From: a virus
Reading direction: 5' to 3' (one strand)
Length of the DNA stretch: 42,277 nucleotides
IMG/VR virus record: IMGVR_UViG_3300034272_001526
Location: 1 to 42,277 of that record
Shown here: piece after piece, positions 19,699 to 22,518 of the stretch
How the letters are laid out: every line of letters starts with the position of its first letter
How positions within the stretch are numbered: the stretch's first letter is position 1
The notes under the pieces: generated by a model
Told to the model about the DNA's origin: nothing
Seen by the model: the letters and a program-made list of their open reading frames with translations, nothing else
Databases searched by the model: none
Translations under genes and position numbers: made by a program

Positions 19699-20278
19699 GC
19701 CGCCCCTGTCCCCTTTCCTCTCCCGCGTGGAGGAGGCCCGACCCGTCGTGGTGGTCGCCCCCCCGCCGGTGGAGCCCCTGCAGGAGCCGCTGGAGGCGCT
19801 GACGGCCTTGCCGGTAGGGGATGGGCGCAAGGCGCGCGGACGGCCCCGCTCCGACGTGGTGCGGGCGGTCGGCACCTCCCAGCGCGGGGAGATGGTGCGG
19901 AGTGCGGTCACGGCGGCGAAGGGGGTCGAGGCCATGAAGGAGGCGAACCGACTCAAGCGGGAAGCGGCGGCAGCGGTCGGGCAGTCCTTGACGCGCAACG
20001 TCCCGAAGCGGACCCCGCTGGCCGTCAAGGAAGCGTGCCTGCTGGCCTTCGACGAGCGCATCCCGATGCTGATGGAGATCGCTGACACCGCGCCGCTCAT
20101 GGCCGACCGGATCCGCGCCATCGACCTCTTGGCGCGCTACGGCGGGCTGGCGACTGTCGAGCTCACCCTCGACCGGCCCGTGGCGATTGCGATCATGGGG
20201 CTGGACATGGCTCCACCGCTCGCCCCGATGGGGGATGGGCGCGAGATCGGCGTGGTCGAAGCGCCGTTGGCGTCGTGA
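19691..20278 (+). CDS. terS: Putative terminase small subunit
   Basis: GTG 19691 overlaps the VRR-NUC stop. The 195-residue product has a disordered Pro-rich N-terminus, an AT-hook-like RKARGRPRSD (about 46-55) and a helical C-terminal half with PMLMEIADTAPLMADRIRAI and DLLARYGGLATVEL, the pattern of terminase small subunits that bind the packaging site and feed the large subunit. The GTGA junction with the large terminase gene supports this. The match is by pattern and position, not by a full-length family resemblance. Confidence 0.65.
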   Translation: MTEPPLSPFLSRVEEARPVVVVAPPPVEPLQEPLEALTALPVGDGRKARGRPRSDVVRAVGTSQRGEMVRSAVTAAKGVEAMKEANRLKREAAAAVGQSLTRNVPKRTPLAVKEACLLAFDERIPMLMEIADTAPLMADRIRAIDLLARYGGLATVELTLDRPVAIAIMGLDMAPPLAPMGDGREIGVVEAPLAS

Positions 20279-22518
20279 CCCGCGTGCTCAAGCAGCGCGA
20301 GGCGCTGCCGACCACCCTCGACATCCGGCTCTCGCCCCAGCAGCGCGCGGTCCTCGCCAAGCAACGGCAGCACCGCTTCCTCGTGCTGATCGCGGGCCGT
20401 CGCTGGGGCAAGACCCGCTTCGCGATTGCGGTGCTCGCGATTGCCGCCGCCGAGAAGCCGAAGAGTCGGAACTGGTACATCGCGCCAACGCGCGAGATGG
20501 CGAAAGACATCTGCTGGGACGTGCTCCTCGAGGTGATGCGTCCGCTCATCGTCGCGGTGAACGCCACCGAGCTCACGGTGACGCTCGCCAACGGCTCGAC
20601 GATCACCCTCAAATCCGCCGACGAGCCGGATCGCTTGCGAGGCCGCGCGCTCGACCTGGTGGTGCTGGACGAATTCGCGCAGATCGCGCGCGAGACGTGG
20701 GACGCGGTGATCCGACCGGCGCTCGCGACCACGCAGGGGAAGTGCGTCTTCATCGGCACGCCGGACGGGCGGGGGTGGGCGTATGAACTCTTCCGCGCGG
20801 CGCAGCAAGACACGACGGGGTACTGGTGCGCGATTGCCCAGACGACCGCGCAGGGCGGCTTCGTGCCGCAGGAAGAACTGGAAGAGGCGAAAGCCTCGAT
20901 GGATCCGCGCATCTACCGGCAAGAGTTCGAGGCCACGTTTGAGTCGGCGCTCGGGCGCGTGCATGACGCGTTCCTGTGGGCCCCGCACCCAGCGGGCAAT
21001 GTGAGCGCGGACGTGTCAGACGATCCGCTGCTGCCGCTGTTGGTGGGCATGGACTTCAACGTGCATCCCATGTCGGTGTCGCTCGCGGTGAAGCGCGGCA
21101 AGCAGTTGCATGTGTTCGACGCGTGGCAAGTGCCGACCTCGAACACGGAAGAAATCTGCACGATGCTGGTGGACCGCTACCCGAACCGGCTGGTGCGTGT
21201 GTACCCCGACCCGTCGGGCAACGCGCGCAAGTCGAGCGCGCCGGTCGGCCAGACAGACTTCACCATCTTGCGCCGCCACGGCTTCAACGTCCTCGCGCCG
21301 ATGAAAGCGCCAGCGGTCGCGGATCGCATCAACGCGGTGAACGCGCTGCTGTGCAACGCGAAGGGGGAGCGCAACCTGCTGATCCACCCCCGCGCGGTGA
21401 CGCTGCTCAAGTCGTTGGACGGCTTGGCGTACAAGCTGGGCACGAGCCAGCCGGAAAAGGCCGGGGGCTTCGACCACGCGTGCTTTGATGGCGACACGCT
21501 GGTGGAGACACCCGCTGGGGTAGTGCCTATCGCCTCGCTGCCGCCCACGGGCGAGATACGCGGCCCGACCGGCGAGTGGGTGTCGTATGTCGGCGCAGGC
21601 ATCACGAAGCGCAACGCGGAAGTGGTCGAGGTGACGTTCGCGTCAGGCTATCGCGTGATCTGCACGCCTGACCACCAGTGGCTGACGACACAGGGGTGGA
21701 TGCGCGCGGTGGACATGGATGCGACCACCGATTACATTGAGGTATGCGATATACAATCCTCAGTGACACGAAGCAGCAGTTCGACGGCCTCACCTACTAT
21801 CGGTGCGGCACCTACTTCCAGCGCGCTGGCGTGCGGCTGCATCGCGCTGTGTACCTCGCGGTGCATGGGGCAATTCCCGATGGCGCACACGTTCATCACG
21901 TCGATGGCGACCCAGCCAACAACGCACCGGACAATCTCGTCGCCATCCACCCCGCAGCGCACGGCGCGCTTCACGGCAGCGAGCCTGCACGACAAGACAA
22001 CGCCCGACGAGCACTGGGACACGCACGCGACGCCGCTGCCGCATGGCATCGCAGCGATGCCGGTCGCGCATGGCACCGCGAGCACCATGCCCAGCACAGG
22101 GATGCACTCTATCGCACCCTTCGCGCCGTCTGCACCCACTGTGGCGGCGAATACGACACCACCCGCAGAGTCAAGACTGCATTCTGTTCACGCAACTGCA
22201 ACGCAGCCGCACGCCGCGCATCCGGCGTGGACAATACGACCAGAACTTGCACGCATTGCGGCGCAGCGTTCACCTGCAACCGCTACTTCGCCACACAGCA
22301 CTGCAGCAAGCGGTGTAGCGCGTTCACACGGCAGCATCGTCTCCGTTCGTCCGGTTAGCGCGCGGGATGTGTACGACGTGTGTGTGCCCGATGTCGGTGC
22401 GTTCGCACTGGCGTCGGGCATTGTTGTGTCCAACTGTGACGCGCTGGGCTACCTCGTCTGGACCGCGTGCAATCCGTTGCGCGACTATCGCATCGACCTC
22501 GCCTCATTCTCCCGCTGA
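20275..22518 (+). CDS. terL: Terminase large subunit interrupted by an intein
   Basis: The 747-residue precursor starts at GTG 20275 (GTGA overlap). The ATPase has Walker A GRRWGKT (41-47), Walker B VVLDE (129-133) and the GTP coupling motif (161-163). The RNase H-like nuclease has GMDFN (Asp 260) and an Asp at 312 (YPDPSGN). The third nuclease motif is split: GGFDHA (397-402), then a 318-residue intein (403-720), then CDALGYLVW (721 onward). Excision would give a normal 429-residue terminase with an unbroken DHACDALGY motif. The enzyme cuts and packages phage DNA. A different gene lies in another frame across the intein. Confidence 0.95.
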   Translation: MTRVLKQREALPTTLDIRLSPQQRAVLAKQRQHRFLVLIAGRRWGKTRFAIAVLAIAAAEKPKSRNWYIAPTREMAKDICWDVLLEVMRPLIVAVNATELTVTLANGSTITLKSADEPDRLRGRALDLVVLDEFAQIARETWDAVIRPALATTQGKCVFIGTPDGRGWAYELFRAAQQDTTGYWCAIAQTTAQGGFVPQEELEEAKASMDPRIYRQEFEATFESALGRVHDAFLWAPHPAGNVSADVSDDPLLPLLVGMDFNVHPMSVSLAVKRGKQLHVFDAWQVPTSNTEEICTMLVDRYPNRLVRVYPDPSGNARKSSAPVGQTDFTILRRHGFNVLAPMKAPAVADRINAVNALLCNAKGERNLLIHPRAVTLLKSLDGLAYKLGTSQPEKAGGFDHACFDGDTLVETPAGVVPIASLPPTGEIRGPTGEWVSYVGAGITKRNAEVVEVTFASGYRVICTPDHQWLTTQGWMRAVDMDATTDYIEVCDIQSSVTRSSSSTASPTIGAAPTSSALACGCIALCTSRCMGQFPMAHTFITSMATQPTTHRTISSPSTPQRTARFTAASLHDKTTPDEHWDTHATPLPHGIAAMPVAHGTASTMPSTGMHSIAPFAPSAPTVAANTTPPAESRLHSVHATATQPHAAHPAWTIRPELARIAAQRSPATATSPHSTAASGVARSHGSIVSVRPVSARDVYDVCVPDVGAFALASGIVVSNCDALGYLVWTACNPLRDYRIDLASFSR
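21481..22434 (+). other. Intein (mini-intein splicing domain) inside terL
   Basis: The element starts with Cys1 in block A (CFDGDTLVETPAGVVPIASL) and has block B with T62xxH65 (ICTPDHQWLTTQGW). At the end, block F/G reads DVYDVCVPDVGAFALASGI, then VVSN, and is followed by Cys+1. These are the residues for Hint-type protein splicing, though the usual penultimate His is Ser here. Between residue about 90 and 290 the terminase frame is Ser/Thr/Pro/Ala/His-rich filler with no endonuclease motif. The HNH endonuclease occupies exactly this stretch but in the -1 frame. Confidence 0.93.
21744..22358 (+). CDS. HNH homing endonuclease nested out of frame in the intein
   Basis: The 204-residue protein is encoded -1 relative to terL. 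An in-frame TGA (21738-21740) lies one codon before its ATG, and TAG closes it at 22356-22358. The HNH core is LHRAVYLAVHGAIPDGAHV (32-50), HHVDGDPANNAPDNLVAIHP (51-70) and a third His at 73. A charged helical linker follows, then two zinc knuckles: CTHC with CSRNC (130-152) and CTHC with CSKRC (169-191). It would cut intein-free terL genes to spread the element. The GAGG before the ATG is only one base away, so initiation is probably weak or uses another signal. Confidence 0.9.
   Translation: MRYTILSDTKQQFDGLTYYRCGTYFQRAGVRLHRAVYLAVHGAIPDGAHVHHVDGDPANNAPDNLVAIHPAAHGALHGSEPARQDNARRALGHARDAAAAWHRSDAGRAWHREHHAQHRDALYRTLRAVCTHCGGEYDTTRRVKTAFCSRNCNAAARRASGVDNTTRTCTHCGAAFTCNRYFATQHCSKRCSAFTRQHRLRSSG

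Follow-up and report, generated by a model that had tools for sequence, protein, structure and literature searches.

The large terminase subunit (terL) gene of virus record IMGVR_UViG_3300034272_001526 encodes an intein that is overlapped, over its linker, by a complete HNH endonuclease gene in the -1 frame. The record was analyzed over its whole length of 42,277 bases, referred to below as the window. The favored interpretation, given a probability of roughly 0.85, is a mobile TerL intein (its splicing and homing being inferred) for which an overlapping gene, translated on its own, supplies the homing endonuclease (its translation and activity likewise inferred). All of the evidence is at the sequence level; it comprises the layout itself, its recurrence, constraint acting on both frames, start signals among relatives, and a pair of isolates with and without the insert.

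The terL Gene and Its Intein

The window carried an ordinary tailed-phage gene set, including genes for a helicase, primase-polymerase, TerL, portal, Mu-F-like head protein, tail tube and tape measure. The terL gene was a single ORF (20275–22518) with a GTG start, encoding 747 aa without interruption, in which the intein ran from Cys1 (21481–21483) to Asn318 (22432–22434), with Cys+1 at 22435–22437 (Table 1). The features that define a Cys-type intein were all present in the host frame, namely the splicing blocks, Cys1, a block B with T..H, a terminal Asn and a C, S or T at +1. The penultimate residue was Ser rather than His, as in 28 of 82 relatives. A Pfam search of terL returned Terminase_6N and a sub-threshold match to Intein_splicing (8e-6). 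AlphaFold, supplied with relatives, predicted residues 1–88 and 282–318 with high confidence and residues from about 90 to 281 as disordered, while Foldseek matched the N-terminal half to the MchDnaB-1 and gp41-1 inteins; C1 and H65 were invariant among 75 inteins. Motifs, AlphaFold and Foldseek thus bore out the proposal of the first-pass annotation that the terL frame contains both splicing blocks, and the spliced terminase was computed at the same length it had given, 429 aa. The window TerL without its intein aligned over the splice junction with the uninterrupted TerLs L027, L028 and L033 (GGLDHIADALGYLCW in L027 vs. GGFDHA/CDALGYLVW), which, like the comparison of two Acinetobacter phages described below, meets the expectation of a precise insertion into an intact host protein.

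Table 1. Positions of the terL, intein and nested HNH features in the window.
Feature	Position	Strand	Basis
terL N-extein, 402 codons	20275..21480	+	phrog_2 terminase large subunit, E 2.9e-42 (residues 17–402); Terminase_6N
Intein N-terminal splicing half, residues 1–88, with Cys1 and block B TPDH	21481..21744	+	AlphaFold pLDDT about 97; Foldseek
TGA in HNH frame	21738..21740	+	Sequence; single codon GGT between TGA and ATG
GAGG, Shine-Dalgarno-like, only 1 nt from ATG	21739..21742	+	Weak in window; strong in many relatives
HNH endonuclease gene, 204 aa, -1 frame relative to terL, ATG to TAG	21744..22358	+	HNH_3; phrog_15471; AlphaFold
Intein linker in terL frame, residues 89–281	21745..22323	+	Disorder predicted, pLDDT about 50; DNA common to HNH gene
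HNH catalytic core, residues 49–77, HVHHVDGD...NN...NL...H...H	21888..21974	+	Residues invariant in relatives
First CxxC...C...C zinc-ribbon-like module, C130–C152	22131..22199	+	C130, C133, C148 and C152 invariant
Second CxxC...C...C module, C169–C191	22248..22316	+	Sequence; widely kept among relatives
Intein C-terminal splicing half, residues 282–318, ...SGIVVSN	22324..22434	+	AlphaFold pLDDT above 90; C-block HMM 46 bits
terL C-extein, Cys+1 plus 26 residues, stop	22435..22518	+	Alignment over splice junction with L027, L028 and L033

The Nested HNH Gene

The nested ORF matched Pfam HNH_3 (E 3.5e-12) and phrog_15471 (E 3.9e-36) and ended in a TAG at 22356–22358. Its coordinates and the HNH_3 match confirmed the complete -1 gene with an ATG at 21744 that had been read from the sequence, and the in-frame TGA reported one codon ahead of this ATG was also found. 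The AlphaFold model was folded throughout (pLDDT 95.9). A profile match to the homing endonuclease I-HmuI (E 2.5e-6) satisfied, with the catalytic motif, the sequence definition of an HNH homing endonuclease (catalytic motif plus homology to a known homing enzyme), and H51, H52, D54, N59, N60, N64 and H73 were invariant in 64 HNH relatives. Foldseek comparison of the model with the PDB gave no strong match, I-HmuI being a weak one (E 0.13). Rows of the HNH structure alignment were limited to the window and related loci, leaving out annotated phage records.

The codon of intein residue 88 ends at nt 21744, so the end of the N-terminal half coincides with the nuclease ATG. At the other end, the last 11 HNH codons overlap the start of the C-terminal half, and both frames consequently encode structured protein there. 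The dual-coded region also contained two tandem copies of a 26-nt repeat (22027–22079; 81% alike, spacing 27), whose unit of 27 preserves both frames.

Phages commonly carry HNH homing enzymes encoded in introns, and I-HmuI, the nearest relative of the nested protein with a solved structure, is one of them, which would suit an RNA-level intron carrying an HNH gene, with the apparent intein incidental. This was tested and rejected with near certainty: both intein halves were intact, continuous with TerL and predicted to fold, and the host frame was maintained without stops, a constraint that does not apply to introns. Rfam searches at gathering scores found no match in the window or in 14 relatives, leaving the criterion for a group I intron unmet.

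Frame Layout in the HNH Family

Scans with the HNH protein and its alignment gathered 25, 80 and 78 loci, and tblastn with the HNH gave 24 phage records. HMMs for both intein ends and for the HNH were run on all loci, followed by deduplication and a score cut. This left 107 HNH loci with both intein ends, of which 84 had a continuous host ORF, with the HNH in -1 (73) or in +1 (11), and 23 were split, i.e., had the intein ends in separate ORFs; in none was the HNH in frame. An HNH that was always in frame in homologues would have refuted the first-pass annotation; comparison of both frames gave the reverse (0 of 107). The core of that annotation, namely that an intein normal in other respects encloses a whole endonuclease gene read in a different frame, holds and recurs in relatives. 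Weak in-frame cases (L022, L171 and L178) involved distant HNH domains only. Since roughly one family member in five is split, the host frame need not be continuous. The split members (including L009, L011, L013, L054, L059–L061, L069, L077, L138, L139, L141 and L142) are possible split inteins with a nuclease gene between the halves.

Individual loci showed further variation. A single ORF of a Clostridium MAG (L158:1331-4732) held two nested-HNH inteins and no recognized extein domain, and the HNH-frame ORF at L020:4719-5492 had an upstream segment similar to another, degenerate half of an HNH, which may reflect a duplication. The closest nested relative of the window was L136, a Methyloceanibacter MAG contig with an HNH 50–54% identical, which is a hint of an alphaproteobacterial host for the phage.

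An open host frame could arise by chance at high GC, and a change of frame by assembly error. In the window alone (locus L001, 64% GC), the host frame stayed open in 33% of synonymous shuffles of the HNH codons, so the window by itself says nothing on selection and the relatives decide. Over the HNH genes of the 84 continuous cases, spanning 28–69% GC, there were 0 host-frame stops vs. 246.8 expected from synonymous shuffling, with 1311 vs. 1388 in the third frame (this set includes L014, whose C-block fell under the HMM cut, and was deduplicated separately from the 107 loci). Since continuity defines the 84 cases, the fair comparison is the open count among all 107 loci: 84 were observed vs. 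about 15 expected (14.6 in -1 and 0.0 in +1). At 19 loci without intein blocks, stops in the same two frames were close to expectation (117 vs. 115 and 358 vs. 358). With the relatives counted in, the open host frame is overwhelmingly beyond chance. As for assembly, the public contig L002 (IMG sample 3300044614) showed 0 mismatches with the window over 6,078 columns and a sole gap of 3 bases, outside the terL gene, an agreement that makes an error unlikely. Chance and misassembly were both tested, and there is almost no room left for either.

Selection on Both Frames and Nuclease Start Signals

In close pairs, HNH third codon positions diverged most, and HNH identity exceeded host-frame identity over the same DNA. 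For L004/L006, divergence was 0.092/0.087/0.399 by HNH codon position, with identities of 0.83 for the HNH vs. 0.58 for the host frame. These two patterns imply selection on the protein sequence of the nuclease and, in the linker, mainly on keeping the frame open, although this is an argument from pattern without a fitted codon model. In 12 of 14 pairs, some of them not independent of one another, HNH third positions diverged less than those of the intein N-terminal half, which agrees with a mild additional constraint from the second frame; the pair L104/L107 has a truncated extein and its TerL value was disregarded. Codons prone to creating host-frame stops in the -1 layout were rarer in nested HNH genes than in TerL at the same loci, both for NTA (0.132 vs. 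0.205, P 5e-5) and for NTG (0.151 vs. 0.257, P 1e-8).

An ATG was found at the expected place in 73 of the 84 nested HNH genes. A Shine-Dalgarno 4-mer at 4–9 nt accompanied 32 of these 73 ATGs, compared with 61 of the 1078 remaining ATGs of these inteins (P 2e-18), and a 5-mer accompanied 17 of 73 vs. 3 of 1078; stops in the HNH frame usually lay a short distance upstream of the start in relatives. Together, these signals favor internal initiation, with translation itself inferred, over programmed frameshifting off the terL frame, from which the nuclease would emerge as a TerL-N/intein-N/HNH fusion. Frameshifting by -1 would suit the fixed frame relation of most relatives (73 in -1), but layouts of both kinds, -1 and +1, exist, and in the window a TGA stands two codons ahead of the HNH ATG; such a fusion is considered very improbable.

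Host Genes, an HNH-Independent Sample and a Second Nuclease Family

The hosts were mostly TerLs of several families (Intein_splicing in 45, Terminase_6N in 20 and Terminase_3 in 15 of 52 scanned), and most inserts occupied one TerL motif, DH/C...N/C-DA-RY. All 82 inteins examined began with Cys and ended with Asn, followed by Cys in 72 and Ser in 10. The nested layout is not limited to TerL, as the portal gene L168:2727-5027 (Phage_portal_3) contained an intein with a nested HNH fragment in -1.

A scan independent of the HNH used a DNA pattern for block B (CTPDHxxLTxxGW) and is biased to window-like inteins. Among its 120 inteins, 72 were full with an HNH in -1, two had it in +1 and one in frame, 12 were mini-inteins without an HNH, and the others were of other type or incomplete. 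L226 was a mini-intein at the TerL site of the window (EDH/C...N/CADATRY). The sample also included in-frame LAGLIDADG-type inteins (L230 and L232, by eye), and several other inteins with a DUF559 (Vsr-like) nuclease out of frame, in +1.

A DUF559 scan gave 68 deduplicated loci, with the nuclease nested in +1 in 53 and in frame in none; one was split and 14 were partial or without blocks. Host-frame stops numbered 0 vs. 477 expected, compared with 719 vs. 680 in the third frame. The hosts tested were helicases, with most inserts after a DE motif (DE/C...N/C); other proteins with this motif also served as hosts. Nested examples were L216:1638-2306, L309:1214-1960 and L328:1841-2572, in addition to the 53 loci among L334–L412. 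DUF559 is unrelated to HNH and has the same layout, which implies that the architecture arose with two unrelated nucleases.

The out-of-frame nuclease within an intein is, as far as sequences can tell, a stable and widespread architecture and not a one-off, the double use of DNA being present in well over 100 further viral sequences. The first-pass annotation had offered it as a step in an invasion; its spread over 28–69% GC and the second nuclease family speak against a one-off or fleeting step.

Occupied and Empty Sites, and the Origin of the Layout

Acinetobacter phage Highwayman (L043) carried a -1 nested-HNH intein in TerL, and Acba_21 (L414) lacked the insert. The left flank (to L043:2197) was 99.6% identical between the two phages, and the right flank (from L043:3193) 100%. 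The Highwayman insert followed YIDA at the predicted splice boundaries, with the next residue changed from Leu to Cys within a short changed tract, and the spliced Highwayman TerL and the empty Acba_21 TerL were both 434 aa. The pair fits what would be expected after recent homing of the whole unit, an inferred event, with a precise loss not excluded. Acba_21 came from a DNA search; Acinetobacter phage BP10, with a free-standing HNH beside terS, was rejected as the empty twin of Highwayman, its TerL being only 27% identical over the aligned part. No empty TerL nearly identical to that of the window was found.

Many phage terminase genes have an HNH gene as a neighbor, and some of the encoded HNH proteins assist TerL in cutting DNA. 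The nested HNH might likewise be a packaging accessory instead of a homing enzyme, the overlap coupling its production to that of TerL. Its free-standing relatives adjoin terminase genes, and HNH proteins acting with the terminase have been described (cited in PMC10448857). However, 42 Acinetobacter records matched the Highwayman TerL, 41 of them other phages, and among the matches listed, these extended to the intein boundary only, which marks the insert as dispensable. The same layout also occurred with DUF559 in helicases and with an HNH in the portal gene L168. A packaging role was accordingly judged unlikely, and homing remains the preferred function.

The first-pass annotation had further suggested that a free-standing homing gene invaded a mini-intein. 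This is plausible, given the terminase-adjacent HNH relatives in isolates and the mini-intein L226 at the same site, but it has not been shown. The HNH tree was weakly resolved (62 of 126 inner branches open), so gain and loss could not be told apart and the direction was not fixed. Free-standing relatives had about 6 host-frame stops for the -1 layout and about 19 for the +1 layout; having fewer stops to lose in -1 would match, by inference, the 73:11 bias of -1 over +1.

Comparison with Known Systems

The window intein shares with canonical full-length inteins the Hint fold, Cys1, the terminal Asn and Cys+1, the usual insertion point of the nuclease between block B and the C-terminal blocks, and a site in a conserved active-site motif of an essential protein (PMC6801210; PMC5050341). 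In canonical inteins, however, the nuclease is an in-frame domain, a criterion not met here: the HNH is a separate ORF in -1 (in +1 in some relatives) and the in-frame linker is predicted to be disordered.

Among published cases the ShiLan domain comes closest, with an HNH read out of frame in a phage methylase; splicing domains are lacking, and the insertion was judged neither intein nor intron. The same paper describes intein endonucleases as intein domains (PMC11855218). An out-of-frame HNH in a methylase was also reported for phage Applejack (PMC12613952). ShiLan and the window have in common a complete HNH gene with zinc-finger motifs, in another frame of an insertion that leaves the host frame open, and a patchy, homing-like distribution. 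The defining absence of splicing domains does not apply to the window, as ShiLan has no intein splicing motifs or fold, whereas the window HNH sits in an intein with both splicing halves. The 24 phage records matched by tblastn with the window HNH included no Mycobacterium phage.

The free-standing HNH genes beside terL (PAE1, SN1, FBPa53, EauM-23 and CL2) belong to the same family, at about 38–44% identity to the window HNH, but lie outside inteins and have other-frame stops at a normal level. In 2009, Dassa and colleagues reportedly described fractured genes and split inteins whose halves are separated by a free-standing endonuclease gene. A separate nuclease ORF between intein halves is common to that arrangement and to the 23 split HNH-family members, and Vibrio phage 1.238.A resembles it. 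In fractured genes the host is broken, whereas the terL ORF of the window runs unbroken through the HNH gene, which lies wholly within it, so that the window does not meet the definition of a fractured gene or split intein.

Proposed Mechanism and Significance

Ribosomes starting at the terL start would make TerL-intein-TerL, from which the intein, folding from both ends, would excise itself and its linker be discarded. Other ribosomes on the same mRNA would start at the nuclease ATG and release free HNH, which may cut intein-less terL genes, with the intein and its nuclease then copied as one unit into the break during repair. Selection on the linker frame would be for openness, its amino acids having little weight, and on the nuclease frame for the protein. 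A free-standing gene placed in frame would bring its own stop and truncate TerL, and out-of-frame copies would persist for this inferred reason. They need only lose host-frame stops, possibly through synonymous changes, and would do so mostly in the frame with few of them.

No account of an endonuclease read out of frame within an intein turned up in a literature search, although coverage was incomplete and priority is uncertain. On balance, the layout is probably a third general architecture of mobile inteins, besides the in-frame and fractured ones, in which an endonuclease gene lies over a disposable linker in another frame. It would be widespread in phages of many hosts, have arisen with two or more unrelated nuclease families (HNH for the most part in -1, DUF559 exclusively in +1), and owe its stability to the fact that a gene placed in frame, bringing its own stop, would destroy the host protein, an out-of-frame one needing only to stay clear of host-frame stops.

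An overlapping-gene form would thus be added to the two accepted ways of joining intein and endonuclease, and it suggests how an essential protein can harbor a homing gene in its active site without damage. In the records of TJE1, Highwayman and LS06-2018-MD07, only TerL is annotated at the nested locus, implying that deposited phage genomes probably conceal many nucleases of this kind. For studies of overprinting, these loci offer a large natural collection of overlapping genes, fully nested and with one of the two frames close to free filler, and the Highwayman/Acba_21 pair makes homing directly testable. The nested layout may also be a possible route to fractured genes and split inteins.
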